A program made the translations under genes and the position numbers. This document shows, piece by piece, positions 136 to 16,694 of a stretch of DNA of 64,000 nt. The stretch is from Archaeoglobaceae archaeon (lineage in GTDB: Archaea > Halobacteriota > Archaeoglobi > Archaeoglobales > Archaeoglobaceae): assembly GCA_015520485.1 (NCBI GenBank), contig WAPX01000059.1:1-64000 (forward strand), read 5' to 3'. How positions within the stretch are numbered: position 1 is the first letter of the stretch; the number at the start of each line of letters is the position of its first letter. Below the pieces are notes generated by a model. It was not told where the DNA came from. It saw only the letters and a program-made list of their open reading frames with translations, and searched no databases.

Positions 136-2037
136 TTATGAATTAGTCTTCAATTCTTTGGATCTATCCACATACTTCGTGTGAAGAAGTTCGTGGGACT
201 TCTCACTGATTGGATGTTCAAAGAATTCTTTATACATCTGCTGGATTTCTGGGTTCTCGTGGGATTTCCTGAGCGGTAGCTGCCTGTCGTGAGCGGTCAG
301 AGCGTCTACTCTCGCCTTGATCCTCTCAAAGTTCGTTGGTAACGGCTGTCCACCGCCTCCAATACATCCACCGGGACACGCCATGAACTCGATAAAGTGG
401 AACTTTGCAAACTCTCCTCCGTTTCTGATGGACTCACAAACCTTCCTCGCATTTCCAAGACCGTGTGCAACTGCCACGTTTATTTCCTTGCCATTGAGCT
501 TTATCGTGGCGACCTTTATGCCATCCAGCGTTTCGAGTTCCTCCCACTCGAGCTTCTGTAACGTTTTACCGGTAATCAACTCATACGCAGTTCTCAGGGC
601 GGCTTCCATAACTCCACCGGTTCTTCCGAATATGGCAGCTGCTCCGGTGTACTTTCCAAGCAACGTGTCTGGCCCCTCGTCTGGTAGTTTGGTTATGTCT
701 ATTCCCGCCATTCTGAGCAGCTTTGCGAATTCTCTCGTTGTGATCACAATGTCCACGTCGGGGAACTTCGGCGTATCCTCCGGAATGTGTCCGTTCTCTT
801 TCAACCACTCCCAGGCACTGCACATTTCCTCTCTCGCTCTCTCAAATTTCTTGGCTGTACACGGCATTATCGAGACGACGACTACCTTTCTCGGGTCAAT
901 TCCGAGCTTTAACGCTGCATAGGTCTTGGCAGTTGGGCCAAACATCTGCTGTGGGGATTTACAGCTCGATATGTTCGGAATCAGGTCGGGGAAGAACGTT
1001 TCACAGAACTTGATCCACCCCGGACTGCAGGAAGTGAACTGGGGCAATGTGTCCGAGACTTTTTCGAGAATTTCGTCCCTTATCTCTATTCCCTTGACGT
1101 CCTCTTTGCTTATGATTCCCGCCTTAATCAGCCTGTAGATAAACTCCGTCCCTTCTTCCATTATAGTTTCATCTGCTCCGAAGTTCGTATCCCAGATCCT
1201 GTCAAACCCCAGTCTTCTCAGAGCGGCGTATACCTTGCCCACGACAATTTCACCCGGTGGCAGTCCAAATTCCTCTCCAATGCTTACTCTGATGGATGGA
1301 GCAAACTGGACAACCACATACTTCTCCGGATCTTTCAGAGCTTCCCAGACTTTCATTGTGTTGTCGACTTCTCTCATCGCTCCAAGAGGTCTCGAATACG
1401 GGCAGAGTTCGCAGCCGTAGAATTTCTTGAAAATCTTAACCTCTTCAGTCTCAAGTCCCATCGGACAGGCGTGTATGCACTGCCCGCACCTCGTGCACCT
1501 CGCTTCGTCAATCTGGATTATACCTCTCTCCTCGTCAAAGCTCAGAGCTTCCACAGTCTGAACGGACTTGCACGTTTCGATACAGTTCTTGCACCTTATG
1601 CAGAGCTGGGGGTCGTACAGTATCGATGGCTCAGAAACCCAGCCCTCAGAGGTGCTTTTCTTTCTTTCTTCCAGAGAGATAAACCCTGCGTTCTCCGCTT
1701 CGACAGCAACGAATTCTTGCAGAAGCCTTACGAGATAACACTCCTCTTTTTCTTTTAACCAGTTGAGTCTTTCGGTAAGTTTTTCTTCAATCTGTTTTGA
1801 TTTTGTATTTATAACCATTCCGTCTTTAACCTTCAGCTGTTTCAGGGTCTTGGGATTTACGATGTTTCCGTCAACTTCGGCTATGTTGAGCAGTGGGCAA
1901 TCCTCGTTTCTTATGAACTCGAGCTGTGGAACTTCGAATGGTCTCCAGAAGCCTATTCCCTCACTTTTCATCATGTCGTAAACAGTTGCCCCTTCTTCAG
2001 CCTCAATCTCCTTTCCATCAAAAACGACTTTAACCAT
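136..2037 (-). CDS. hydA: [FeFe]-hydrogenase catalytic subunit (HydA-like)
   Basis: Catalyses reversible H2 oxidation at an H-cluster. All three H-cluster signatures are present: L1 TSCSPGW (residues 335-341), L2 MPCTAKKFE (391-399) and L3 FMACPGGCIGGGGQP (551-565). Two ferredoxin-type [4Fe-4S] motifs precede them (C146/149/152/156 and C181/184/187/191), then an extra CELC (209-212). Residues 1-80 keep a beta-grasp ferredoxin-like pattern but only one Cys (C47), so the N-terminal [2Fe-2S] cluster is gone, as are the His/Cys ligands normally found near residue 100. The second Cys of the common TSCCP is Ser; TSCSP also occurs, as far as I recall, in bacterial multimeric enzymes. Last gene of hdrA-hdrC-hdrB-mvhD-hydA, 4 bases after mvhD, with GGGGTGA upstream of the ATG. 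Function by family is near certain; partnership with Hdr is inferred from the operon. Confidence 0.95.
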   Translation of the reverse strand: MVKVVFDGKEIEAEEGATVYDMMKSEGIGFWRPFEVPQLEFIRNEDCPLLNIAEVDGNIVNPKTLKQLKVKDGMVINTKSKQIEEKLTERLNWLKEKEECYLVRLLQEFVAVEAENAGFISLEERKKSTSEGWVSEPSILYDPQLCIRCKNCIETCKSVQTVEALSFDEERGIIQIDEARCTRCGQCIHACPMGLETEEVKIFKKFYGCELCPYSRPLGAMREVDNTMKVWEALKDPEKYVVVQFAPSIRVSIGEEFGLPPGEIVVGKVYAALRRLGFDRIWDTNFGADETIMEEGTEFIYRLIKAGIISKEDVKGIEIRDEILEKVSDTLPQFTSCSPGWIKFCETFFPDLIPNISSCKSPQQMFGPTAKTYAALKLGIDPRKVVVVSIMPCTAKKFERAREEMCSAWEWLKENGHIPEDTPKFPDVDIVITTREFAKLLRMAGIDITKLPDEGPDTLLGKYTGAAAIFGRTGGVMEAALRTAYELITGKTLQKLEWEELETLDGIKVATIKLNGKEINVAVAHGLGNARKVCESIRNGGEFAKFHFIEFMACPGGCIGGGGQPLPTNFERIKARVDALTAHDRQLPLRKSHENPEIQQMYKEFFEHPISEKSHELLHTKYVDRSKELKTNS

Positions 2038-2041
2038 AAAG

Positions 2042-2464
2042 TCACCCCTTCAGAGGATTTGGTCCCAACTTCCTGATGGTGGCGTCAAATTCCTTCATGA
2101 CCTCCGCAAACTTCAAACCCTCAGAACCGCTTATCCACTCCAGTCTTACTCTCTCGGGCTCGATTCCGAGCTCTGATATGATCTCTTTGAGCCACTCATA
2201 CCTCTTCAGAGCCTTGGAGTTACCGTCCTTGTAGTGACAGTCTCCGGGGTGACACCCACCAATTAGGACTCCATCAGCACCGTTGAACAGAGCTTCAAGA
2301 ACGAACTCTGGCTCAACTCTACCACTGCAAGGAACTCTGACCACCTTCACTGTTGGAGGATAGGAATACCTCAGGCTTCCTGCAAGGTCTGCTGCCTGAT
2401 AGGTACACCAGTTACACGCAATAACTACGATGTTGGGCTCCCACTCTTCGCTTACTTCGCTCAT
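2042..2464 (-). CDS. mvhD: MvhD-type [2Fe-2S] electron-transfer protein
   Basis: A small iron-sulfur protein that in methanogens wires the [NiFe] hydrogenase MvhAG to HdrA. Visible cysteines fit the family: C17 and C20 (ACNWCTYQAADLAG), C46 (VPCSGRV), C71 and C76 (GGCHPGDCHY). At 140 residues it has the usual size. It overlaps the hdrB stop by four bases (ATGA) and is followed at once by hydA. Here no mvhA or mvhG is seen; the [FeFe] subunit takes their place, so this protein probably carries electrons between HydA and HdrA. Family assignment is strong, the rerouted role is inferred. Confidence 0.92.
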   Translation of the reverse strand: MSEVSEEWEPNIVVIACNWCTYQAADLAGSLRYSYPPTVKVVRVPCSGRVEPEFVLEALFNGADGVLIGGCHPGDCHYKDGNSKALKRYEWLKEIISELGIEPERVRLEWISGSEGLKFAEVMKEFDATIRKLGPNPLKG

Positions 2465-3420
2465 CTTTTACCACCCTCCAGAATCCTTTTAATTATCTCG
2501 TCTCTCGGCGTAACGCAGACTCCGGCCACCTGCTGGGGGTCAAAACCCATGCATATTGCGAGAAGCTGGACGTAGTGAAGAACGGGAATTGAGAAGTTTA
2601 TCTTTCCTTCCTTTCTGAGTTTTTCCTGAACGTCATCAAACTGAATCGTGCATGAGCTGCAACCGGCCACTATGAGGTCGGCGTCGAGCTCCTCTTTTAT
2701 GCACTCGAGCTTGTCTTTTGCAAGAGCAAACGATTTCTCAGGATCTGTGCTCCTCAAAGCACCTATTCCACAGCAGTCTATGAGTTTTGTGTAGTAGGGC
2801 GCTTCTGCTCCTAAGGCTTCGCAGAGCTCTCTCAGAACAACAGGATTGAACGGGTCCTTTTCCTTGTCCGGATATACTTCGGAGGGCCACAGGAAGTGAC
2901 ATCCCGGCTGGACGGCTATCGTAAGTCCGTCGAGAGTGTACTTTATAGACTCCCTGATCTTTTCCAGACCTATGTCCTTGTACAGAACCCATGCTACGTG
3001 CCTGCACTTGGCTTTTCCCTCGTATTTCTTTCCTATTTTTGCGAGGATTTCGTTAACACCGTTCATAATTTCGGGATTCTTCAGCATCTTGTGCCTTGCT
3101 TCGTTCAGGCTTGCGTAGCAGGTGTTACAGGCTGTCATAAGGTCAATTCCCTTTTCCTCGCCCAGACAGAGGTTTCTCGCCGCCACAGCGCACCAGCCAA
3201 CATCGTCAATGGACGGCATCGTCCCCCAGGTCGGGCAGCACGACTGACCTGCCAGATCGTCCAGTTCAACACCTAAAGCCGGAAAGATCTTCCTCATCGC
3301 CTGCTCAACATCAGGCCTGTTAAATGTAATGTTGCAACCCAAAAACAATCCAAACTTGAGTTTTTTCTCTTCATTTTCGTTTACGGTTTCAGCCTCCGAA
3401 ACCATAGCTTCCGAAACCAT
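2461..3420 (-). CDS. hdrB: Heterodisulfide reductase subunit B (HdrB)
   Basis: Holds the two CCG domains that bind the non-cubane [4Fe-4S] clusters which cleave disulfides. By my count the motifs are CX31CCX35CXXC (around QSCC and CNTC) and CX41CCX36CXXC (around DCCG and CSSC). The N-terminus has a 15-base tandem duplication giving MVSEAMVSEA before the conserved fold begins at KFGLFLGCN. The GAGGTGG site before 3420 supports the upstream ATG. Archaeoglobales are not known to make CoM-S-S-CoB, so the disulfide substrate is unknown; DsrC (42516-42866) is one candidate. Nine bases after hdrC. Confidence 0.93.
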   Translation of the reverse strand: MVSEAMVSEAETVNENEEKKLKFGLFLGCNITFNRPDVEQAMRKIFPALGVELDDLAGQSCCPTWGTMPSIDDVGWCAVAARNLCLGEEKGIDLMTACNTCYASLNEARHKMLKNPEIMNGVNEILAKIGKKYEGKAKCRHVAWVLYKDIGLEKIRESIKYTLDGLTIAVQPGCHFLWPSEVYPDKEKDPFNPVVLRELCEALGAEAPYYTKLIDCCGIGALRSTDPEKSFALAKDKLECIKEELDADLIVAGCSSCTIQFDDVQEKLRKEGKINFSIPVLHYVQLLAICMGFDPQQVAGVCVTPRDEIIKRILEGGKR

Positions 3421-3429
3421 AAAACCACC

Positions 3430-3996
3430 TCACCCCATGGGTATCAGACCGAGCTCGGCAAGCTTGGTGTTCTTCAAAATCGTTTTGAGCTCCTGAAGAG
3501 CTTTTTCATCAGAATCCGTTGTGGGCGGTTTTTCGGGTAAACCAACTTTTTTCCTCGCTTCTCTGCCAGTCATGTAAACTGCGTGACCGTGCTCGTACAG
3601 ACTCCTCAAGCCTTCAATTGTAAGTGTTGGGAGAGCGAAGTCCTCAACCATGAGCCTTCTCATTGCCAGCATAACTTCAAACGGTGTGACGTTTCTCGGA
3701 CAGATTTCCGTGCATCTGTTGCAGGCTACGCATGCCCAAGGCGTCATGTCGTCCAGAAGCTCTTCTCTCATACCCACAAGTATTGCCTTGATGAGCTTCT
3801 TGTTGTACCACTCGAAGCCAGTTCTTGCGAGAGGGCAGATAGAAGCGCAGGCTCCGCACTGCATGCATGCCATCAGATTTTCCGCTCCGAACTCGATTAT
3901 GAGTTTTGAAACTTTCTCCTCAAACTCCTCTTTTTCTCTTTCCGCTACCTCGGTTAGATTGATAACAGGGGGAACGCCTTCTTCTGCAAGTTCCAT
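3430..3996 (-). CDS. hdrC: Heterodisulfide reductase subunit C (HdrC)
   Basis: An electron-relay subunit between HdrA and HdrB with two [4Fe-4S] clusters. The motifs CMQCGACASICP (near residues 44-55) and CVACNRCTEICP (near 91-102) are both complete. The 188-residue length fits the family. A strong GGAGGTG site precedes the ATG and the gene starts 3 bases after the hdrA stop, so the genes are co-transcribed. The rest of the protein is mostly helical, as expected for an HdrC that docks on HdrB. Confidence 0.93.
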   Translation of the reverse strand: MELAEEGVPPVINLTEVAEREKEEFEEKVSKLIIEFGAENLMACMQCGACASICPLARTGFEWYNKKLIKAILVGMREELLDDMTPWACVACNRCTEICPRNVTPFEVMLAMRRLMVEDFALPTLTIEGLRSLYEHGHAVYMTGREARKKVGLPEKPPTTDSDEKALQELKTILKNTKLAELGLIPMG

Positions 3997-3999
3997 CGA

Positions 4000-6105
4000 T
4001 TACACCTCCACAACCTTTTTAGCAGCAATAGTTCTGATTTGAGCGAGCACCTGTTCGTACGTGAAGCCGTGCAGCGTTATTGCCTTGCTCGGACACGCTG
4101 CAGCGCAAACGCCGCATCCCTTGCAGAGCGTTTCATTTATCTTTGACTTCCTCGCGCCGTTAACCTCCACGAGCGTTATTGCGCCGTAGGGGCAGAGGTT
4201 CTCGCAAATACCGCACCCAATGCACTTCTCCTGATCAACCTCTGAGATGAGCGGTTCGACCTTCATTTTACCCGGAGCGAGCAACGACATGGCTGAAGCT
4301 GCAGCAGCCTTGGCCTGAGCCACGGAGTCCGGAATGTCCTTGGGACCCTGAGCGCAACCGCAGATGAATATACCCTCTGTCATCGTGTCAACGGGATACA
4401 GCTTGGTGTGCCTCTCTTTCAGGAAACCTTCCGCACCAACACTGATGCCGAGTTTTCTCGCCAGTTCTTTCAGGTCCATGTTTGGCTCCATAGCCGTTGC
4501 GAGAACGACTATGTCGGAAATGAGCTCCACAGGCTTGCCAAGTTCGGCATCGTATCCCTTTACGAGCAACCTCTCGTCCGGCAGCCTCTGCACGCCTCCA
4601 ATCTTGCCCTTGATTATCTTGATTCCTAGCTTCCTGCACCTCATGTAGTACTCGTCGAAGTCCTTTCCGGGTGTTCTGACGTCTATGAAGGAGATGTATA
4701 TCTCCAAGTCCGGATACTTCTCCTTCAGCAGCATCGCCTGCTTTAGCATGTACATACAGCAAACCTTGGAACAGTAGGTGTGATACCTCTCGTCTCTCGA
4801 ACCAACGCACGACACAAACGTGATTACGTGTGGTTTTCTCGCCTCAAGTTCGGCTTCTTTACCCTTCTCGATCTTCTTCTTCCATTCAAGGTACTTGGGT
4901 ATGTCAGAAGGAACGATAAGCTTACCCTCAGTCGGGCCAGTAGCAGAAATCAGCCTTTCCATCTGCAGAGCTGTAATGACGTTCGGGCTGTCGGGAGCGT
5001 ACTCCTTGAAGTGCTTCTTGTCCATAACTCTGTAACCGGTAGCAACGACTATAGACCCAACGTTCAGCTCGATAAGCTCACCATTCGGATCTCTCGGCTC
5101 ATCCCTGCTGCAAGCCCCAGTTGGACAGACCTTCTCACACGGAGCCAGAATCGGCTTTCCGTCCTTGGTCTTCCTCGGCTCCTCACCGAACCACCTTCCA
5201 CTACACCTTATGCACGCATCTGGGTCGATTACAGCCTTCTTTGGCACAGCCTGCGGGAAGGCTATGTATATCGCTCCCCTCATGTTCAGTCCCTCGTTGT
5301 ATTCGTCCGGCACTCTCGCCTTTGGTGGACAGACGTTGAGACAAGCACCGCAGCCTGTGCACTTGTTCCAGTCAACGTAAGTCTGCTTCTTTCTGACCTT
5401 TACCTTGAAGTTACCAACCGTTCCATCTACAGACTCCACTTCAGCGTAGGTTATTAGCTCGACGTTGGGGTGGTTGGCAACTTCGACCATCAGCGGTGTA
5501 AGAATACAGGCAGAACAGTCGTTTGTTGGAAAAGTCTTGTCAAGCTTGGCCATGTTTCCTCCGATTGACGGCAACTTCTCGACCAGATAAACCTTAAAGC
5601 CGGCGTTTGCCAAGTCTAAAGCTGCAAAGATTCCCGCTATACCTCCTCCAAGCACCATCACGTCCTTGTTCAGCTCTATGTAACGATCCTCTAAGGGTTC
5701 GAGCAGTCTCGCTTTAGCTACAGCAGCAGCCACAAGCAGCTTAGCTTTTTCCGTGGCTTTCTCCTTCTCATGCCAGTGCGCCCACGAACACTGATCTCTG
5801 ATGTTTGCCATTTCGAAGTAGTACTTGTTCAAACCTGCATCTTCACACGCCTTTCTGAATATTGGCTCGTGGGTTCTCGGTGTACAGGCAGCCACCACGA
5901 CTCTGTTCACAAGCCCTTTTCTGATATCCTCCTTGATTATCTCCTGTCCGGGATCGGAACACATGAAAAGGTAATCTCTTGCCACAACGACATCGGGCAG
6001 TTTTTCTGCGAATTTCCTGACCTCTTCAACGTTTACTGCTCCAGCTATGTTCTCTCCACAATGGCAGATGTATACCCCAATTCTGGGTTTGTTCTCCGCT
6101 GTCAT
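4000..6105 (-). CDS. hdrA: Heterodisulfide reductase subunit A, flavin/iron-sulfur (HdrA)
   Basis: The FAD subunit that, in methanogens, bifurcates electrons from H2 or formate to ferredoxin and a disulfide. Order of elements: N-terminal HdrA domain with GVYICHCG; FAD-binding VMVLGGGIAGIFAALDLANA (about residue 150); an inserted iron-sulfur region with CTGCGACLNVCPP and further Cys; the YCSKVCCMYML segment; and two C-terminal ferredoxin motifs, CIGCGICENLCP and CKGCGVCAAACP. No in-frame TGA, hence no selenocysteine. The start at 6105 is chosen over a GTG or TTG a few codons upstream because GGTTGGTGGG lies 4 bases before this ATG. First gene of the hydrogenase operon and divergent from hydG. 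Confidence 0.94.
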   Translation of the reverse strand: MTAENKPRIGVYICHCGENIAGAVNVEEVRKFAEKLPDVVVARDYLFMCSDPGQEIIKEDIRKGLVNRVVVAACTPRTHEPIFRKACEDAGLNKYYFEMANIRDQCSWAHWHEKEKATEKAKLLVAAAVAKARLLEPLEDRYIELNKDVMVLGGGIAGIFAALDLANAGFKVYLVEKLPSIGGNMAKLDKTFPTNDCSACILTPLMVEVANHPNVELITYAEVESVDGTVGNFKVKVRKKQTYVDWNKCTGCGACLNVCPPKARVPDEYNEGLNMRGAIYIAFPQAVPKKAVIDPDACIRCSGRWFGEEPRKTKDGKPILAPCEKVCPTGACSRDEPRDPNGELIELNVGSIVVATGYRVMDKKHFKEYAPDSPNVITALQMERLISATGPTEGKLIVPSDIPKYLEWKKKIEKGKEAELEARKPHVITFVSCVGSRDERYHTYCSKVCCMYMLKQAMLLKEKYPDLEIYISFIDVRTPGKDFDEYYMRCRKLGIKIIKGKIGGVQRLPDERLLVKGYDAELGKPVELISDIVVLATAMEPNMDLKELARKLGISVGAEGFLKERHTKLYPVDTMTEGIFICGCAQGPKDIPDSVAQAKAAAASAMSLLAPGKMKVEPLISEVDQEKCIGCGICENLCPYGAITLVEVNGARKSKINETLCKGCGVCAAACPSKAITLHGFTYEQVLAQIRTIAAKKVVEV

Positions 6106-6607
6106 GCATCCCACCAACCAGTGCTTATTATCTAAAATACTGTAATGATTACTGCCATCTTTTTAGTTTTGCAATATACTACAAAAATCTTTTGGAGGGG
6201 GTGAAAATGTTCGCCAGAACGATAATCGAACATTAATAATTAGCCAAGCCAATAATTAATAGACTAAAAACAGAAACTGAAAGTATATAAATCTGTTCAG
6301 TAATTCTGTCATTGCGACATATTTGCAGGATAATTAAAAAAACTTGGGAAAAATTGATGATAATAATGAAAATGATAATAAAAGTATTTCCAGATCTTCG
6401 ACAGATAACGTATTTTTCTTAAAACTTATTAACTATCTACCTCAGAATGCTACCTGTAGTTCGAAAAAACAACGTTTTCGCTTATCCAGACTGTATGGAC
6501 AGTTAGGCAGGCACAAATTGTGAGAAAAGTTAATATCGACGTAGCTACAGAAGTTGTTGCTGTAGTTGAGGATACCGGATATTACGTTACTTCTGGTGGT
6601 GGTTTGA
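6106..6607. promoter_or_regulatory. Divergent control region between hdrA and hydG
   Basis: About 500 AT-rich bases separate the hydrogenase operon from the maturation operon. On the plus strand a good TATA box (TATATAAAT, 6284-6292) with a purine-rich BRE-like element would give a leader of about 300 bases before hydG. Minus-strand TATA candidates for hdrA are at 6172-6180 (AGTATATTG) and 6131-6140 (GTATTTTAGA). hydG has a clear GGTGGTGG site before its ATG. No sizeable gene is supported here; only a 9-codon ORF (6207-6236). Shared control of both operons is inferred. Confidence 0.5.
6207..6236 (+). other. Nine-codon ORF with a perfect Shine-Dalgarno site
   Basis: ATG at 6207 follows GGAGGGGGTGAAA, the strongest ribosome site in the intergenic region, and encodes MFARTIIEH then TAA. 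It may be a leader peptide, the start of a deleted gene, or chance. It lies before the TATA box at 6284, so it would belong to a transcript starting further upstream. Confidence 0.3.
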
Positions 6608-8152
6608 ATGAGTACTGCAATTGCCACACCTGTAAGTGTAGAGGACTGGTTTGAAAACTTGCCTAGGAAAATAAGAGAGTGGATGGAAGAGAGAATAAAC
6701 CCGGAAGACGACTACACGAAGTACATGAAGGACGGCAGAGACTTTATAGACGAGCACAAAATCTGGAAAACAATAAAGGAGAACAGGGACGCCACGCCCC
6801 ACAGAGTTAGAATGATTATAGACAAAGCTCTTTCGACCAAGGAATGCTTAGAGCCGGAAGAAGTTGCCACGCTTTTAAACGTTAAAGACGAAGAGCTCTG
6901 GAAGGAAATTTTTGAGGCTGCCGGTGAAGTTAAGAGAGCCGTTTACGACAACAGAATCGTTACGTTTGCACCGCTCTACTGCTCAAACCTCTGCGTTGGT
7001 AACTGTCTGTACTGCGGGTTTAGAAGAGACAACAGAGTCGTAAAGAGGAAAAGGCTTTCGCTTGGAGAAGTCAGGAGAGAAGCTGAAATTTTAGCGGGAA
7101 TGGGTCACAAACGTTTGATAACATCGTACGGCGAACACCCGCTTTCGGATGCTAACTACATTGCAGACACTCTCAAAACGATATATAGCGTCAGGGTTAA
7201 AGCCAAGAAAGGCTGGGGGGAAATAAGAAGGGTAAACGTGAACGCAGCGCCCATGACAATCGAAGAGCTTGAAATGCTCAAAGAGATAGGTATTGGAACG
7301 TTTCAGGTTTTTCAGGAAACGTACCACCACGAAACGTACTACAAGGTCCACCCTTCAGATACGATAAAGGGCAACTACCACTGGAGGCTGTACTGCATGC
7401 ACAGAGCGCTTGAAGCGGGAGTTGATGATGTCGGCATTGGCGTTTTGCTTGGCCTGTACGACTGGAGATTTGAAGTCATGGGACTACTAATGCACTCCAA
7501 GGACTTAGAAGAGCAGTTTGGCGTAGGCCCTCACACTATATCCTTCCCGAGACTAAGACCGGCTGCAAATACACCGTTCGTTCAGGAAGCGAAGTACAGT
7601 GTATCCGATGAAGACTTCAAGAAGTTCATAGCAGTTGTCAGACTTTCCGTACCCTACACGGGCATGATCCTGACGGCAAGAGAGCCAGAGCACATAAGGA
7701 GGGAAGTCATTCCACTGGGCGTAACCCAGACCGATTTCGGCTCGAAAATAGGTATAGGTGCGTACAGCGATAGTTACACGAAACAGGAAGCAGAAAGACA
7801 GCAGTTCCTACTTGGAGACACCAGAGAGCTTGACGAGGGGATAAGATGGCTGGCTGAGATGGGCTACATCGTTTCGTTCTGTACGGCAGGTTACAGATGC
7901 GGAAGGACGGGAACCAAAATCATGAAGCTCCTCAAAACCGGTAAGGAGAAAGTATTCTGCAAGTTGAACGCCGTGCTGACGTACAAGGAGTACCTCGAAG
8001 ACTTTGCGAGCGAGGAGACGAAAAAGGTGGGTGAGCAGATCGTACAGAAAGAGATAGAGGAGATCAAAGAGCTCGTCCCCGAGAGGGTGTTTAAGAAGTT
8101 CTTGGAATACCTGAACAGGATCGAAAATGGGGAAAGAGACCTATACTTCTGA
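6608..8152 (+). CDS. hydG: [FeFe]-hydrogenase maturase HydG, tyrosine-cleaving radical SAM
   Basis: HydG cleaves tyrosine and builds Fe(CO)2(CN) synthons for the H-cluster. The radical SAM motif CX3CX2C is at C129, C133, C136 (CVGNCLYC), and the ETYHHETYYKVHP segment holds the His that in known HydG binds the dangler iron. The C-terminal auxiliary cluster motif, normally CX2CX22C, reads CTAGYRCGRTG: C425 and C451 stand in the usual places, but the middle Cys is Gly428, with a new Cys at 431. The rest of this region (GRTG, NAVLTYKEYLEDFAS) is typical. First gene of a tightly overlapping unit; the next ORF starts 26 bases before its stop. Confidence 0.95.
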   Translation: MSTAIATPVSVEDWFENLPRKIREWMEERINPEDDYTKYMKDGRDFIDEHKIWKTIKENRDATPHRVRMIIDKALSTKECLEPEEVATLLNVKDEELWKEIFEAAGEVKRAVYDNRIVTFAPLYCSNLCVGNCLYCGFRRDNRVVKRKRLSLGEVRREAEILAGMGHKRLITSYGEHPLSDANYIADTLKTIYSVRVKAKKGWGEIRRVNVNAAPMTIEELEMLKEIGIGTFQVFQETYHHETYYKVHPSDTIKGNYHWRLYCMHRALEAGVDDVGIGVLLGLYDWRFEVMGLLMHSKDLEEQFGVGPHTISFPRLRPAANTPFVQEAKYSVSDEDFKKFIAVVRLSVPYTGMILTAREPEHIRREVIPLGVTQTDFGSKIGIGAYSDSYTKQEAERQQFLLGDTRELDEGIRWLAEMGYIVSFCTAGYRCGRTGTKIMKLLKTGKEKVFCKLNAVLTYKEYLEDFASEETKKVGEQIVQKEIEEIKELVPERVFKKFLEYLNRIENGERDLYF

Positions 8153-8429
8153 GTTTTCCGGAGAATTTCTGGACGAGCTCGCCCGAATATCCGAAGAAGT
8201 CAGAAAGAAGTACGGAGTGTGCGTCTGGTTTGCAGAAATCTTGGGGAGGAGATGGTCATACATAGCGGGAGAGAAGGGTGAAGAGGACATATTCATGCCC
8301 CCGCACAGAGTTCAGCTTGGAGAGAGGTTAGGAGCTGTCATAGAATGTGGAGATCTACCTGAGGAAAAGATAAACGAAATCGTGTCGTTTTTGAAGAAAA
8401 AGGTTGAAAAAAGGGTTGAGATTCCATGA
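8127..8429 (+). CDS. Small unknown protein between hydG and hydF
   Basis: A 100-residue protein whose start overlaps the hydG end by 26 bases and whose stop overlaps the hydF start (ATGA). I do not recognise the family. It has one Cys pattern only (GVCVWFAE), a WSYIAGEKGEED segment, and a Lys/Glu-rich helical C-terminus (EEKINEIVSFLKKKVEKR). It does not resemble my recollection of the TM1266-type ACT regulators found in bacterial hyd operons. The tight overlap on both sides argues that it is real and works with HydG or HydF, but no function can be stated. Confidence 0.8.
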   Translation: MGKETYTSEFSGEFLDELARISEEVRKKYGVCVWFAEILGRRWSYIAGEKGEEDIFMPPHRVQLGERLGAVIECGDLPEEKINEIVSFLKKKVEKRVEIP

Positions 8430-9652
8430 AAACTCCCCGTTCTCTCAGACTGCACATAGGCATTTTTGGAAGGAGAAACGCCGGAAAGTCGACGCTCATA
8501 AACGCTCTGGCTGGAAAGGAGATAGCAGTGGTCTCAAATGTGGCTGGAACGACAACAGATCCCGTACTTTTCGATGCTGAAATAGGAAACGTTCCCGTCA
8601 CATTTATCGACACTGCAGGGATAGACGACACAGGTGAACTCGGAAAGATGAGGATAGAGAGAACTCTGGACATCCTGAGCAAGGTTGACGTTGCTCTGCT
8701 GATGGTAGATGCAACGAAGGGCTTTGGAGATTACGAGAGAAACCTTGTAAAGATTTTCAAAGAAAACAAGACCAAGTTCATCGTCGTTGTTAACAAGATA
8801 GATTTAGCTGACTACGATGACGATGAGCTCAGGAAGTACAGGCTCGTCAAAATCAGTGCAAAAAAGGGGGTGAACGTAGACAGATTGATTGACATGATGC
8901 TTAAAATCTCTCCGGACATAGATGATTCTCAGTTTTTAGACGATTTGATAGAACCGAAAGACCTTGTTATGCTGAACATACCCATAGATCTTGGTGCTCC
9001 CAAGGGAAGACTCATCTACCCACAGGTTCAGGCCATAAGAAACATACTCGACATAGGGGCTTCCTGCATAGTCGTCAAAGAGAGGGAGCTGAAGTGGGCG
9101 TTTGACGGGTTGAAGAAAAAGCCAAAGATGGTCATAACAGACTCCCATGCGTTTACAAGAGCTGCAGCAGACACACCTGAGGACGTTTCGCTCACGAGCT
9201 TTTCCATACTTGATGCCAGATTCAAAACTGGCGATCTGCCCGAGCTCATCAGAGGGCTGTCTCAGATCAAAAAGTTGAAGCCCGGAGACAGAGTGCTGGT
9301 TGCTGAAGCCTGCACTCACCACCCCTCACCAGACGACATAGGCAGGGTGAAGATACCGAGGTGGATTCGAAACATAGCTGGAGATGTCAAATTCGATCAC
9401 GTGATGGGCGGAAACTTTCCTCCCGATTTGTCCAGGTACAAATTGATAATTCACTGCGGAGCCTGCACGCTTACGAGAAGGCACATGAGGTACAGGCTGA
9501 AGAAAGCACTCGACAGCGGAGTTCCTGTGACGAACTACGGATTGGTGATAGCATTCGTTCACGGAATACTGCCGAGAGCCATAAAGATGTTTCCAGACGC
9601 CATGAAAGCGTGGAAGAAGTATTTCGATGGTTATGAAAGAAGTTGTGCGTGA
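8426..9652 (+). CDS. hydF: [FeFe]-hydrogenase maturation GTPase HydF (copy 1)
   Basis: The scaffold on which the diiron subcluster is assembled and then passed to HydA. N-terminal GTPase: P-loop GRRNAGKS (15-22), GTTTDPV, DTAG, NKID. Central dimerisation region around SHAFTRAAADTPEDVSLTSFS. C-terminal [4Fe-4S] site with C296-T-H-H (CTHHPSPDD) and HCGAC (343-347), matching the known CxHx(about 45)HCxxC pattern. DIGRVKIPRW and the NYG segment are also typical. About 408 residues, normal for the family. Overlaps its neighbours at both ends, so it is in the hydG operon. Confidence 0.95.
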   Translation: MKTPRSLRLHIGIFGRRNAGKSTLINALAGKEIAVVSNVAGTTTDPVLFDAEIGNVPVTFIDTAGIDDTGELGKMRIERTLDILSKVDVALLMVDATKGFGDYERNLVKIFKENKTKFIVVVNKIDLADYDDDELRKYRLVKISAKKGVNVDRLIDMMLKISPDIDDSQFLDDLIEPKDLVMLNIPIDLGAPKGRLIYPQVQAIRNILDIGASCIVVKERELKWAFDGLKKKPKMVITDSHAFTRAAADTPEDVSLTSFSILDARFKTGDLPELIRGLSQIKKLKPGDRVLVAEACTHHPSPDDIGRVKIPRWIRNIAGDVKFDHVMGGNFPPDLSRYKLIIHCGACTLTRRHMRYRLKKALDSGVPVTNYGLVIAFVHGILPRAIKMFPDAMKAWKKYFDGYERSCA

Positions 9653-10925
9653 GATGTTCTCGCTCGTAAAAGCGCACCACGATTTCATAAATTCGGCAAT
9701 TCCCTTAATAGCAAGTGAGAACGTCACGAGTCTGGCGGTTAGAAACGCTCTGCTGAGCGATTTTCAGCACCGCTACGCTGAAGGTTTGCCCGGACAGAGG
9801 GTTTATGCGGGCTGCGAGTTCATAGACAGGATAGAGCTGAAAGCGATTGAGCTCGCTAAAGACGTTTTTGATGTCGAACACGTAAATGTTCAGCCCACTT
9901 CCGGCAGCGTGGCAAACCTCGCCCTTTACTCCGCCTTTACAGAACCGGGAGATACAGTTGTTGCACTCAGCATTAAAGACGGCGGACACATAACGATGAA
10001 CAGGGTTGGATTAGCAGGTAAACTCGGTCTGAACGTTATCGCATTTCCTTTCGACAAACAAGAAATGAACATAGACGTCGATAGAGCTGAAAGGGTTATC
10101 AGAGAAGCTGAACCTGAGCTCGTACTTTTCGGAGCGAGCGTGTTTTTATTCCCCCACCCGGTTGAGGAGTTGAGAGACGCTGCAAAAGAGGTCGGAGCTG
10201 TAATTGCTTACGATGCGAGTCACGTTCTGGGACTCGTAGCTGGAAAGCAATTTCAAAATCCGGTGAAGGATGGAGCTGACGTCGTTACCTCTTCAACGCA
10301 CAAAACGTTTCCCGGTCCCCAGCACGGAATGGTGATGTGCAGGGCGGAGTTTGCAGAAGCGATAGACAGAGCCGTTTTTCCCGGAGTGCTGAGCAACCAC
10401 CACCTTCATAGCGTCGTGGCACTGGCTATTGCCCTCTGCGAGATGAAGGCATTTGGCAGAGATTACGCAGAGCAAACGGTTAAGAACGCAAAGGCTCTCG
10501 CTGAAGCACTCGCAGGCGAAGGGCTCAGAGTCGTTGCGGAACATAAGGGTTACACGGAATCGCACCAGGTTCTCGTGGATTTAATTCCATCCGGCTTAAG
10601 CGGGCTTAAAGCGGAAAAAATGCTCGAACAGGCCGGAATACTGGTGAACAGAAATCTGCTTCCGTGGGATAAGGAGAGGGGAAGGAACTTTAGAGACCCC
10701 TCCGGAATAAGAATTGGTGTTCAGGAAGTTACAAGGCTGGGTATGGAAGAGGACGACATGAAGGACATAGCCCGGTTCATCGCAGACGTTGTGTTTGAGA
10801 GAAAGAACGTCAGAGAAGTTTCCAGAGAGGTCGCAGAATTCAGAAAGGAGTTTACGAGAGTTGAATACTCCTTCGACAGGGGAGATGCGTACCGCTGGCA
10901 GGAGTTATGGAGCTTGGAAGAATAG
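9627..10925 (+). CDS. glyA: Serine hydroxymethyltransferase (archaeal type) in the maturation operon
   Basis: A PLP enzyme that converts serine and a tetrahydropterin (in these archaea H4MPT) into glycine and methylene-pterin. Visible signs: N-terminal IPLIASENV, HRYAEGLPGQRVYAG, the PTSGSVANLA region, and the PLP-lysine motif SSTHKTFPGPQHG (Lys near residue 229). At 432 residues it is full length. It overlaps hydF by 26 bases, and the next gene overlaps it by 19. Bacterial work has traced the H-cluster aminodithiolate bridge to serine, so an SHMT here may supply its carbons; this is an inference. It could also be the housekeeping glyA placed here by chance. Confidence 0.9.
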   Translation: MVMKEVVREMFSLVKAHHDFINSAIPLIASENVTSLAVRNALLSDFQHRYAEGLPGQRVYAGCEFIDRIELKAIELAKDVFDVEHVNVQPTSGSVANLALYSAFTEPGDTVVALSIKDGGHITMNRVGLAGKLGLNVIAFPFDKQEMNIDVDRAERVIREAEPELVLFGASVFLFPHPVEELRDAAKEVGAVIAYDASHVLGLVAGKQFQNPVKDGADVVTSSTHKTFPGPQHGMVMCRAEFAEAIDRAVFPGVLSNHHLHSVVALAIALCEMKAFGRDYAEQTVKNAKALAEALAGEGLRVVAEHKGYTESHQVLVDLIPSGLSGLKAEKMLEQAGILVNRNLLPWDKERGRNFRDPSGIRIGVQEVTRLGMEEDDMKDIARFIADVVFERKNVREVSREVAEFRKEFTRVEYSFDRGDAYRWQELWSLEE

Positions 10926-12433: not shown

Positions 12434-13225
12434 TTAGTCCTTCAGCATGAACTTCCCGATAAATTCAGCCATCTCCACAGCCTGCCTCGTCTCTCGAACG
12501 TTGTGGGTTCTGATGTAATCCGCTCCTTTTAAAGCTGCCAGAGCTTCAGCAACAACTGACCCGATCAGCCTGTCTTCCGGATTTTCAATCCCCAGTATCT
12601 GCCCGATAAAAGACTTTCTCGAAATGCCTGCAAGCACAGGCACGTTCAGCCCGGACTTTATCCTGTCGAGGTTTGCGATTATGCAGGCATCTCTTACGAA
12701 CCACCTTCCGTATTTCCTCCAGAAGCCGATTGCAGGGTCAGCAACAACGTTTTTACGAGGAATTCCTCTCTTCAGACACCTCCTGACCTCAGCTTTCAGA
12801 GATTTAACGGTCGAGCTAACAGCGGTGTTCTCGCTCCATTCGATCTCTCTGGCAACGACAATCACCGGTACACCGGTTCTTCTGGCAACATCCACTATTT
12901 CGTCATCGGGCTTTACTGCGTTGATCATGCACGCTCCTGCCTCAACAGCCTTTTCAGCAACGCTAGCCCTCGTCGTGTCTATGGATACGGGAATGCCGAG
13001 CTTCGATATCTCTCTTACTGCCGGGATTACCCTCCTCAGCTCTTCCTCCTCGCTTATCCATGTGTCCCTGTAGGGGGCGGTTGACATCCCGCCTACATCT
13101 ATCACGTCTGCTCCTTCTTCAATCATCTTCTCAGCCCTCTTTATAGCTGAGTCCACGTCTCTGCAAACGGAACCGCTGTAAAACGACTCAGGACTCAGGT
13201 TTATCACTCCAACGAATTTTACCAT
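12434..13225 (-). CDS. Dihydropteroate-synthase-like pterin-binding protein
   Basis: A TIM-barrel of the DHPS family, 263 residues: N-terminal GVINLSPESFYSG, then ADVIDVGGMSTAPY, PVSIDTTRASVAE, VVADPAIGF and the C-terminal GISRKSFIGQ. The family makes dihydropteroate or binds a pterin in methyl transfer. The start overlaps the end of cofE by 38 bases and its stop is one base from the convergent radical SAM stop. In archaea DHPS relatives are linked to methanopterin synthesis. Whether it serves general pterin supply or the hydrogenase locus cannot be told. Confidence 0.8.
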   Translation of the reverse strand: MVKFVGVINLSPESFYSGSVCRDVDSAIKRAEKMIEEGADVIDVGGMSTAPYRDTWISEEEELRRVIPAVREISKLGIPVSIDTTRASVAEKAVEAGACMINAVKPDDEIVDVARRTGVPVIVVAREIEWSENTAVSSTVKSLKAEVRRCLKRGIPRKNVVADPAIGFWRKYGRWFVRDACIIANLDRIKSGLNVPVLAGISRKSFIGQILGIENPEDRLIGSVVAEALAALKGADYIRTHNVRETRQAVEMAEFIGKFMLKD

Positions 13226-13961
13226 TCAGACTCCCCCAGTAGAGGCACTCTCCCGGATCAACTGTCAGACAGAACCTTTCCTCCGTAAACCTGACCTTTA
13301 AACCTCTAACTATAACCACAGGGATCATTTCGTCAGCTTCACCCATCAGGAGCTGTGAAGCTGAAGCAAGCATATCTGCGAGGTTTCTCATGGTGTTTCT
13401 CAGAGGTTTTCCGAACAAATCTCGCTTTCCTCTTTCGTCTTTTATCGCTTCGAATCCCGATGCAACCAGTGCTATTCCACAAACACCCCTTCTGAGCGGT
13501 AAAACTCTGCTATCGGATATCACCACGCCCACTCTACCGTTAACCCTTTTTTCAATCAGTCTTCTCAGCGTATCTGCAGAGCTCTGCGGATCCTCCGGGT
13601 ACAGGATCGCATACCCCTCTGGCACGTTTGACCTGTCAATTCCCGCGTTTGGCTGCAGCATACCGGATTTCAGCGTGAGCACGAATCCCTCAACGCCTCC
13701 AATTATTTCATCCGCTTCTCTCACAACGAGCTCCGCAAGTTCAGGAGAAATTCCGTACTGTCTGGAGAGTTTTAAAGCTCTGCCTGAAGGTTTAACGTCT
13801 GCCAGTCTTACGAGTCTGCCCTCACAGTAAGACACTGCCTTGCTCGAAACGACGACGATGTCTCCTTTTTTGACGAATTCTGCTACAGCATTCGCGATGT
13901 AATTCAGATCGACACCAGGCTCTATCCTGAACCTTACCGGTATCAGCTCCACTTTTTGCAT
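13188..13961 (-). CDS. cofE: Coenzyme F420-0:gamma-glutamyl ligase (CofE)
   Basis: Adds gamma-linked glutamates to F420-0 using GTP. Family motifs: VVVSSKAVSYCEGR, the GVVISDSRVLPLRRG segment, SGFEAIKDERGKRDLFGKPL and a LADMLASASQLLMGEADE helix. The start at 13961 (MQKVELIPVRF) is set by GGAGG six bases upstream on the minus strand; the open frame extends 10 codons further without support. 257 residues. Gap of 67 bases after aspA and a 38-base overlap with the DHPS-like gene. Confidence 0.9.
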   Translation of the reverse strand: MQKVELIPVRFRIEPGVDLNYIANAVAEFVKKGDIVVVSSKAVSYCEGRLVRLADVKPSGRALKLSRQYGISPELAELVVREADEIIGGVEGFVLTLKSGMLQPNAGIDRSNVPEGYAILYPEDPQSSADTLRRLIEKRVNGRVGVVISDSRVLPLRRGVCGIALVASGFEAIKDERGKRDLFGKPLRNTMRNLADMLASASQLLMGEADEMIPVVIVRGLKVRFTEERFCLTVDPGECLYWGSLNGKIRWSDKPES

Positions 13962-14028
13962 GGAGTAACCTCCGGTGTTACGGCGTGTCATCAGCTACCG
14001 CCGCTATTGACATTCTGGATACAGTACA

Positions 14029-15462
14029 TCAATCCCTGTACTCCCTGCTGACGATCTTCCTGTCGACTTTACCCTCTCCAGCAACTCCCGGCTTTACGAG
14101 TTCCTGCGGCGACAGCAAAACCTCAAGCTCTTCCTCGCTGAACAGCCCCTTTTCAAGCAAAACTTCTCTGATCGTCTTACTCTTCGTAACTGCTTCCTTT
14201 GCTATCTCAGCCGCTCTGTCGTATCCGAGGTAAGGTGCCAGAGGGGTGATCAGAGCCGGACTCCTCTCCAGATACATCCTGCACATCTCTTCATCTGCCT
14301 TAATTCCTCTTACGCACTTCTCGATCATGACCTCAACGGCATTTGTCAGTATTTCGAGTGATTCGAGCATGTTGTGAACTATTAGAGGTGCTAAAGCGTT
14401 TAGCTCGAGTTGTCCGTGTGCGGATGCCATGTTTAAGGCAACATCGTTGGACATCACCCTGATAGCAACCTGCTTTACGCACTCCAGTATGACCGGGTTG
14501 ACCTTTCCGGGCATTATCGAAGAGCCGGCCTGAACGGGAGGCAGTCTAATCTCTTTAAACGCGCTCATCAGTATCAGGTCGTTTGAAATCTTGTAGAGGT
14601 CTACCGCCAGAGCCTTGAGAAGTCCGTGCACCTCGACGAACACGTCCCAGTTCTGGGTTGGATCCACCAGATTGTCAGCTTTGGCCAGATTTAAGCCCGT
14701 GATGTCTCTCAACCTCTGGATGACCAGATGTATGTACCTCAGATCAGCGTTCAAACCCGTGCCCACTGCAGTTCCACCCAGATTTACCTGTCTTAACCTC
14801 TCCTCAACCTTGTACAGCCTCCACCTGTCTCTGGCTATCGCTTCGGCGTAAGCGCTGAACTCCTGACCGAGCGTGATTGGCACAGCATCCTGCATTTCCG
14901 TTCTTCCGAGCTTAAGAACTCCCGCAAACTCCCTTTCCTTGTCCTCCAAAGCCTGCTGAAGCTCACCAACTACTGCAGTTAGCTGTCTCAGCAGAGATAT
15001 GGCTGCAATTCTTGCAGCGGTTGGAAAGGTGTCGTTTGTCGACTGCATCTTGTTGACATCGTCGAGCGGATGCACTTTTTTACCCAGAATTTCACTCGCA
15101 CGATTCGCTATTACCTCGTTTACGTTCATGTTCAGCGAAGTTCCCGCTCCTCCCTGAAACGGATCGACTACAACATGGTCGTGCCATTTTCCTTCGATCA
15201 GCTCATCGCAAACCTGAACTATTGCCCTGGCCTTGTCCTTATCAAGGTGTTCGAGCTGCATCAGGGATAAAGCACACGCTTTTTTAACCATTGCAAAAGC
15301 TCTTATCAGCTCGGGATGGATTCTGTACCCTAGTCTAACGGTGATGGGAAAGTTTTCTCTGGCTCTCGCTGTGTGAATGCCGTAGTAAACATCAGCCGGA
15401 ATCTTCTTCTCACCCAGAAAGTCCTTCTCAACCCTCAATACTTCCACGCGTTTGCCGGACAT
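14029..15462 (-). CDS. aspA: Aspartate ammonia-lyase
   Basis: Releases ammonia from aspartate to give fumarate. It belongs to the fumarase/aspartase superfamily by the signature GSSIMPGKVNP. LGRTEMQDAVPITLGQEF and DPFQGGAGTSLNMNVNEV look like aspartase rather than fumarase. 477 residues, full length. The start overlaps the end of hydF2 by 28 bases. aspA genes are known in bacterial hydEFG clusters, and the ammonia may become the bridgehead nitrogen of the H-cluster azadithiolate; that role here is inferred from context. Confidence 0.9.
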   Translation of the reverse strand: MSGKRVEVLRVEKDFLGEKKIPADVYYGIHTARARENFPITVRLGYRIHPELIRAFAMVKKACALSLMQLEHLDKDKARAIVQVCDELIEGKWHDHVVVDPFQGGAGTSLNMNVNEVIANRASEILGKKVHPLDDVNKMQSTNDTFPTAARIAAISLLRQLTAVVGELQQALEDKEREFAGVLKLGRTEMQDAVPITLGQEFSAYAEAIARDRWRLYKVEERLRQVNLGGTAVGTGLNADLRYIHLVIQRLRDITGLNLAKADNLVDPTQNWDVFVEVHGLLKALAVDLYKISNDLILMSAFKEIRLPPVQAGSSIMPGKVNPVILECVKQVAIRVMSNDVALNMASAHGQLELNALAPLIVHNMLESLEILTNAVEVMIEKCVRGIKADEEMCRMYLERSPALITPLAPYLGYDRAAEIAKEAVTKSKTIREVLLEKGLFSEEELEVLLSPQELVKPGVAGEGKVDRKIVSREYRD

Positions 15463-16694
15463 ACCTTTGTCCTCCGAGACAAAAATTCGTAGGGAATATC
15501 TCCAACCTCAACACCTTCAAGCACCATCTTTTCGAGGGGGAACGGATCGAGGAACCTGCTGAGGTACCCCTTGAGGTAACACGCAGACAGGCCAATTGTT
15601 GTTACGCTTCCCCCCTTTTCTTTTACGTACTCAATCCTTTCGAGCATTTCATCCCTCCTCAGCCTGCAGGCGTTGCAGTGAATCACGAGCTTTTGATTGC
15701 TGTAATCCTCGATATCGCCGAATTCCACAGCGCACCCCTTCTTTTTCAGCTCTTCAACAACGAAATCTGTCCAGAAATCGTCTGGATCGTTCCTGTCCTC
15801 GCAGCACTGAACGACGAGAACCCTATCACCTCTGCTCAAGTCGTCCATAACTCTCACTCCCTTTATGAAAGCCGTCAGGTCGCCCATGTATCTCGCTTCA
15901 ATGACTGAAAACGACGTCAGAGGAGTATCTGGAATGTATGCGTTCTCAAAAGCCCTTGTATCTACAACTGTCAGGCTTATTTCTCTGTCCAGATAGTCCA
16001 GAGTTTCCTTAACGTTGTCCTCTCTTGCGATGACGCAGTACGCATCCTGATCTATCGTTTCCCTGAAAGCCCTGACCCAGATAAGCGGGAGCCTTCCCTT
16101 TGGGAACCTTATTTCCCGGGGGAACACGTAAAGTACAGCTTCTCCTCCCCTGCACAGGTCTGCAACGAGTGGAACTTCCTGATCAGCCGGAGCTCTGGGG
16201 ACTATTTCTCTCTTCAGCGTGATCAAACCCTCTCTCGTCTTCGCACTGACCTTTACAAAGGGAATGTCGTACTTCTTCGCGAGTTCAGCGATGTCTTCGT
16301 CGGATACCTCCTTTAGATCTATCTTGTTTACAACTCCAATTACGGGAATTCCGAGTTCCTTTGCCCTCTGTATTACTTTCTCTTCAAATTCCAGACCCTC
16401 ATCGAGCCTCGTGGCGTCTACTACAAGTAAAGCGAGATCCACGTCTTTCAAAACCTCTAAAGCCTTCTCAACTCTTTTCGTTCCAAGCTCACTGACGTCA
16501 TCCAGCCCTGCTGTGTCTATGAGCGTGACGGGACCTAAAGGGAGCAACTCCATTGATTTGGAGACGGGATCCGTCGTCGTACCGGGAACGTCAGACACTA
16601 TTGCAATGTCCTGATTCGTCAACGCGTTTATCAGACTCGATTTGCCGGCGTTCATCCTGCCAAAAATGCCGATTTTCGTCCTGAAACCCTTCAT
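15435..16694 (-). CDS. hydF2: Second HydF-type GTPase, altered cluster site
   Basis: A 419-residue HydF paralogue. GTPase motifs are complete: GRMNAGKSS, GTTTDPVSKSMEL, DTAGLDD, NKID. The middle region keeps DTRAFENAYIPDTPLTSFS. At the C-terminal cluster site CTHH of HydF is replaced by CCEDRND, so both His are lost, whereas HCNAC is retained; three or four Cys are still available as ligands. The GTPase part looks closer to typical bacterial HydF than copy 1 does, while the C-terminus is more diverged. First gene of hydF2-aspA-cofE-DHPS. A TATA-like GTTAAATTT lies near 16,717. It may be a partner, a carrier, or a maturase for another enzyme. Confidence 0.88.
   Translation of the reverse strand: MKGFRTKIGIFGRMNAGKSSLINALTNQDIAIVSDVPGTTTDPVSKSMELLPLGPVTLIDTAGLDDVSELGTKRVEKALEVLKDVDLALLVVDATRLDEGLEFEEKVIQRAKELGIPVIGVVNKIDLKEVSDEDIAELAKKYDIPFVKVSAKTREGLITLKREIVPRAPADQEVPLVADLCRGGEAVLYVFPREIRFPKGRLPLIWVRAFRETIDQDAYCVIAREDNVKETLDYLDREISLTVVDTRAFENAYIPDTPLTSFSVIEARYMGDLTAFIKGVRVMDDLSRGDRVLVVQCCEDRNDPDDFWTDFVVEELKKKGCAVEFGDIEDYSNQKLVIHCNACRLRRDEMLERIEYVKEKGGSVTTIGLSACYLKGYLSRFLDPFPLEKMVLEGVEVGDIPYEFLSRRTKVCPANAWKY

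Follow-up and report, generated by a model that had tools for sequence, protein, structure and literature searches.

Paired HydF paralogues of Archaeoglobaceae with reciprocal residue losses: a probable division between scaffold and GTPase switch

Why does a locus for an [FeFe]-hydrogenase encode two HydF proteins, one of which lacks the usual cluster site? We analyzed this question in a stretch of 64,000 nucleotides (the window) from a nearly complete (99.96%) genome, G000, of one genus of Archaeoglobaceae. HydA, the catalytic subunit of the hydrogenase and presumed client of the maturation proteins, is encoded at 136-2037 on the minus strand (TIGR02512, 451.7 bits) and carries the H-cluster motifs TSCSPGW, MPCTAK and FMACPGGC. 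Note that HydA residue 338 is Ser instead of Cys (TSCSP for TSCCP), at the position usually regarded as the proton relay, with the remaining H-cluster motifs intact. Genes for FlpD/MvhD-like, HdrB-like (CCG), HdrC-like (ferredoxin) and HdrA proteins follow HydA in an array (136-6117) that looks as if the [FeFe]-hydrogenase took the place of Mvh, the [NiFe] hydrogenase in the Mvh-Hdr complex. Beyond HdrA lie, on the plus strand, the radical SAM maturase HydG (6608-8152; TIGR03955, 480.9 bits), a 100-residue ORF without family match (8127-8429), the first HydF copy (HydF1, 408 residues; 8426-9652) and serine hydroxymethyltransferase (9627-10925; NF000586, 494.6 bits). The second copy (HydF2, 419 residues; 15435-16694) and aspartate ammonia-lyase (AspA; 14029-15462; NF008909, 639 bits) are encoded on the minus strand. 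The small ORF keeps its position between HydG and HydF1 in G004, G005, G012 and G002, and serine hydroxymethyltransferase lies beside HydF1 except in G012. HydE of G000 is on a different contig. Also travelling with the hyd cluster are a Mer/luciferase-like TIM-barrel protein (10907; weak match), a short radical SAM protein (11743), a Pterin_bind (DHPS-like) protein (12434-13225, minus strand) and a CofE/F420-ligase-like protein (13188-13991, minus strand).

Both HydF reading frames are open and score above the cut-off (325.55 bits) of the curated HydF model TIGR03918, HydF1 with 493.6 bits over the complete profile (1-392 of 392) and HydF2 with 357.5 bits, confirming the initial annotation of two HydF proteins in one locus. 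The copies are 38% identical over 397 columns. Three HydF2 orthologues fall under the cut-off (G002, 315 bits; G003, 232 bits; G001, 228 bits). HydF2 contains the Pfam domains GTPase, HydF_dimer and HydF_tetramer; in G001 and G003 the third domain is shortened and without a Pfam match. Single-chain AlphaFold2 models had a mean pLDDT of 84.5 for the window HydF2 and 82.1 for the G001 protein, which is free of cluster residues, and Foldseek returned HydF entries as the best PDB matches of both. The TM-scores were 0.40-0.55 with large rmsd, mirroring domain orientation and divergence; the models therefore back the fold and nothing beyond it. At the C-terminus, HydF2 carries a tail ending in N-A-W-K-Y (15438-15488, minus strand), predicted to be disordered (pLDDT <50 at residues 403-419). 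The form N-x-W-K-[YW] is common to all seven HydF2 orthologues and missing from HydF1.

We compared the site residues of the two copies with a reference set of 91 HydF sequences (89 from Bacillota and Bacteroidota, and two from Thermotogales). HydF1 has the usual cluster site that had been ascribed to it, EACTHHPSPDDIGRVKI...IHCGAC, with CTHH (C296-H299) at 9311-9322 and HCGAC (H343-C347) at 9452-9466 (plus strand). The pattern C-x-H...HCxxC, together with S243, S263 and D306, is present in 7/7 HydF1. In HydF2 the site reads QCCEDRNDPDDFWTDFV...IHCNAC. The two His that normally follow the first Cys are missing, and an additional Cys precedes the canonical one (C297-C298, 15801-15806, minus strand), followed by ED replacing the usual TH, as originally described. 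The description of the cluster His as lost applies only in part: in G000 the His of HCxxC is still there (HCNAC, H339-C343; 15666-15680, minus strand), and only the CxH His (H300) is invariant in the family, being present in 91/91 reference sequences with the position after it variable. H300 is absent from all seven HydF2 and, in two of these, every cluster Cys is lost as well, so that C-x-H...HCxxC is found in none. S243 is replaced by T, M or I in 7/7 HydF2; S263 is kept in five and is Ala in two. The conserved His of HydF are not cluster ligands, yet are needed for [2Fe] assembly (PMC6212873). According to PMC13360658, which cites earlier work, [2Fe] is bound by Ser243 and Ser263, and Asp306 acts in bridge synthesis. 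The residue pattern of HydF2 occurred in none of about 95 HydF sampled, ruling out that it is a common variant of single-copy HydF, one of two findings that would have spoken against the initial annotation.

The GTPase half shows the opposite picture. It had been noted as the more typical half in the second copy, and indeed HydF2 (residues 1-168; 16191-16694, minus strand) retains 34/34 family-conserved GTPase residues, including the interswitch of the K49/G57 type, compared to 30/34 in HydF1. We extended the comparison to all seven genomes using columns conserved in at least 95% of the 91 reference sequences (GTPase, 34; dimer domain, 21; cluster domain, 26). HydF1 keeps 28-30 of the GTPase columns, 19-20 of the dimer columns and 25-26 of the cluster columns (26/26 in the window), whereas HydF2 keeps 32-34, 10-11 and 9-16, respectively. 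Every HydF1 has lost K49 and G57, two residues of the hairpin that joins switches 1 and 2, whereas no HydF2 has lost either. Every residue of the G1-G4 motifs is nonetheless retained in HydF1, and these motifs are likewise intact in HydF2.

Evolutionary rates are reciprocal as well. From pairwise distances, the ratio of GTPase-half to cluster-half rate was 2.1-4.1 for HydF1 pairs (12.9 for G001-G003) and 0.22-0.72 for HydF2 pairs (1.26 for G001-G003). Bacterial HydF pairs at an overall distance of 0.3-0.6 gave 0.71-1.86, and at larger divergences the ratios of both archaeal copies fall outside the bacterial range. At low divergence bacterial ratios reach 3.0-4.5, and the HydF1 pairs there (2.1-2.7) lie within that range. 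Thus, close HydF1 pairs alone are not decisive, since bacterial pairs scatter up to 4.5 at smaller distances. In trees, the distance of the GTPase half to the bacterial sequences was 3.05 for HydF1 and 2.55 for HydF2 (2.58 among bacteria themselves), and that of the C-terminal half 1.85 and 5.42, respectively (1.64 among bacteria).

Separate phylogenies of the two halves had been proposed as a check for recombination. Both halves gave the same grouping, and each copy forms one group with either half, which excludes that the HydF copies are fusions of halves from two sources. The exception is a short, probable conversion tract in G002. Here the genes for HydF1 and HydF2 lie on different contigs (L067:321-1565 and L060:3600-4889), and their GTP-binding cores, from the P-loop to G2 with switch 1 in between, agree at 101 of 102 bases; in the other genomes this region is 66-76% identical. 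The adjoining interswitch stays different, and the next motif is without recent exchange. This points to recent gene conversion, with an artefact of short-read assembly as the alternative. HydF2 is the probable donor, because the tract is of HydF2 type (LTNQ...PGTTTD). In the HydF tree, HydF1 and HydF2 lie on the same side of a branch with a support of only 86, and HydF2 forms a long branch. HydF2 may have arisen by duplication within this lineage or by separate acquisition.

HydF was detected in 7 of 55 Archaeoglobaceae genomes and all seven carry both copies; HydF2 never occurs without HydF1. Six of these genomes belong to one genus (g1) and one, G012, to a second (g8). The HydF pair of G012 (loci L064 and L065) is nested among the g1 sequences, and HydF is absent from four other g8 genomes, making a transfer of the hyd cluster between genera possible. 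HydF was not found in 24 sampled genomes from other families of the phylum, nor in 196 genomes around a Heimdallarchaeota locus, ruling out these Asgard archaea as donors. Among Bacillota, 196 of 349 genomes contain HydF, nearly always as a single gene; apparent second hits were mostly split matches, and genuine second copies retain the canonical cluster site. In Bacteroidota, 10 of 148 genomes have HydF, one copy each.

HydF2 could in principle be a decaying duplicate, as its cluster site is degraded to varying degrees and its C-terminal half evolves fast. This explanation is hardly credible. HydF2 is open in all seven genomes of two genera, its dN/dS is 0.03-0.06 (values that are rough, with synonymous sites near saturation in all pairs but G000-G004), its GTPase half is more conserved than that of HydF1, and its operon is kept. 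Selection and distribution thus rule out a pseudogene, the other finding that would have spoken against the initial annotation, and refute the decaying duplicate.

Is there a cluster in HydF2? The seven orthologues can be arranged by increasing loss. HydF2 of G000, G004, G005 and G012 has CC-x-D-R-N...HCNAC. In G002 the site is C-D-S...LCNAC, with the second His lost too and the extra Cys replaced by Ala. In G001 and G003 no cluster Cys is left and the HCxxC segment is deleted. The GTPase motifs are kept in all seven, including the two without a cluster site. It had been suggested that the second copy binds a differently ligated cluster, which would make HydF2 a second carrier or redox partner. 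Consistent with this, C298, C349, C352 and D306 (T. melanesiensis numbering) are kept in five genomes and the additional Cys is present in four of these five; moreover, the His are not ligands in known HydF (PMC6212873), so that a cluster could still form. However, the conserved function of HydF2 cannot depend on a cluster, because G001 and G003 have lost all cluster Cys and yet conserve the gene, its operon and its GTPase. In addition, none of the seven retains Ser243, a residue of the [2Fe] pocket. As the general function of HydF2, a differently ligated cluster is therefore improbable; in the other HydF2 lineages, with three Cys and an Asp, it is possible.

The same residues bear on whether each HydF serves its own hydrogenase, with HydF2 tuned to another HydA or diiron enzyme. 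Relatives do encode second, divergent HydA-like proteins (L067 4531-5856, 40% identical to the window HydA). A second scaffold would require the pocket residues and the cluster, however, and HydF2 has lost both, leaving this explanation very doubtful.

We next considered the gene beside HydF2. AspA adjoins HydF2 in 7/7 genomes and never lies beside HydF1. The reading frames overlap in five, by 28 bases in four genomes (including the window) and by 23 in one, and are separated by 1 and 14 bases in the other two. In G012, HydE, HydF2 and AspA overlap in one array. Since 168 bases separate HydF2 from the next upstream ORF, it is plausible from the gene arrangement that HydF2 heads the operon, as initially annotated. 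In bacteria aspA usually adjoins hydF, and in vitro AspA can provide the nitrogen for DTMA, as ammonia from aspartate (PMC11736057). HydF2 could accordingly have departed from H-cluster assembly and now serve aspartase as a partner GTPase, or regulate ammonia supply under the control of GTP. The invariable linkage, the conserved C-terminal tail and the role of AspA in DTMA synthesis in vitro would fit such a partnership, as would the conservation of AspA (80-99% identity to the window copy), which is far above that of HydF2. We nevertheless regard it as unlikely. Linkage to aspA says little about a new partner, because it is common for ordinary bacterial HydF (PMC11736057); HydE shares the array in G012; and the reciprocal change in HydF1 would be unexplained unless HydF2 took over something from HydF1. 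Because aspA adjoins HydF2 in all seven genomes and HydE joins them in G012, HydF2 very probably works in H-cluster assembly.

Neither the T-protein of glycine cleavage nor a real H-protein was found in G000, G001, G002, G003, G005 and G012, and the published DTMA route needs aminomethyl-lipoyl-H-protein. GCV_H matches of 190-198 residues in G001-G003 proved to be tandem biotinyl-type domains (EAMKMENE) and were rejected. A clear H-protein was also missing in 9 of 38 sampled HydF-bearing bacteria. Another route to DTMA may thus be fairly common. The missing glycine cleavage system could be what HydF2 compensates for or responds to, but it does not by itself require a second HydF. The absence of these proteins from the archaeal genomes questions the generality of the published route. 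The Pterin_bind and CofE-like proteins of the window recall FolP and FolC2, and by this likeness the DTMA bridge may draw on a folate-type C1 pathway.

Our preferred explanation, in which we have moderate confidence, is that HydF was duplicated and its two jobs were divided, with HydF1 as the scaffold and HydF2 as the GTPase switch. The GTPase motifs of HydF are essential for maturation, with GTP binding acting as a switch and a role towards HydE and HydG suggested, and precursor transfer needs no GTPase activity (PMC6212873, PMC7450098). Scaffold and GTPase functions are therefore separable in principle. The cluster is likewise essential, and a variant without two cluster Cys is inactive (PMC12752695); thus, HydF2 of G001 and G003 cannot be self-sufficient. 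Since HydF1 has what a scaffold needs and HydF2 what a switch needs, we infer a division of labour in the cell and a role of HydF2 in maturation. The suggestion that the pair splits its roles thus stands, on reciprocal residue loss, reciprocal rates and co-occurrence in 7/7 genomes, but the likelier split is between scaffold and GTPase switch rather than between scaffold and delivery.

In such a division, HydF1 would hold the [2Fe] precursor besides the [4Fe-4S] cluster, and would be the place where the DTMA bridge is completed before transfer to HydA. HydF2 would neither build nor carry the precursor and would be retained as a GTPase switch, presumably co-expressed with aspartase. GTP binding by HydF2 might control whether HydE/HydG, or the aspartase that produces ammonia, can dock; the partner under control is a guess. 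So is the physical form, most likely a HydF1-HydF2 heterodimer or a mixed dimer of dimers. Since known HydF is a dimer, a heterodimer would be the simplest arrangement. With its dimer domain much altered (10-11 of 21 conserved residues kept), HydF2 could associate through another surface, or could no longer pair with HydF1. Other findings also count against the division. HydF1 keeps all G1-G4 residues and may thus be a competent GTPase needing no help, and five of seven HydF2 retain three Cys and an Asp, so that these may bind a cluster. Note also that the seven HydF lineages are few and related. We propose only tentatively the stronger version, in which HydF is here an obligate two-subunit protein of a cluster-bearing scaffold and a GTPase subunit, the latter without an Fe-S cluster in some lineages. 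This would be the first natural separation of scaffold and switch, possibly tied to a DTMA route without the glycine cleavage system.

The purpose of the GTPase in HydF and the need for a dimer are two open questions of hydrogenase maturation (PMC6212873). In known HydF both functions reside on one chain and are separable only by mutation. If the separation is natural here, the subunits could be purified, omitted or swapped singly, which would allow a direct assignment of the GTP-dependent step; as HydF2 of G001 and G003 is free of a cluster site, it would offer a GTPase subunit without a confounding metal site. The HydF family itself is known. A search of the open-access literature turned up no paper that deals with paralogues of HydF or with the archaeal HydF of Archaeoglobi, and relative to this literature the pairing by reciprocal loss and the natural HydF relative without a cluster site are new.

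Several known systems resemble parts of this pair. Thermotogales HydF (T. neapolitana 3QQ5, T. melanesiensis 5KH0 and T. maritima 5LAD) has the same three-domain layout and identical G motifs, matches HydF1 with 355 bits and HydF2 with 266 bits, and provides the first hits of the HydF2 model. There, a single protein does everything; by comparison, HydF2 is without H300, S243, the 194-203 loop residues and N375/Y376, and HydF1 is without K49 and G57. In bacterial hydF-aspA operons (PMC11736057) aspA directly adjoins hydF, as it does here, but in the seven Archaeoglobaceae genomes its neighbour is always the cluster-poor copy, never the scaffold copy. The Bacillota genomes G337, G392 and G282 likewise have two HydF genes each. 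In contrast to the Archaeoglobaceae pair, both of their copies carry C-x-H...HCxxC, and there is no reciprocal loss. Finally, the laboratory variant C353A/C356A (PMC12752695) is, like HydF2 of G001 and G003, a GTPase-bearing HydF fold without [4Fe-4S]. Alone this variant is dead, whereas its natural counterparts are maintained by selection beside an intact HydF.
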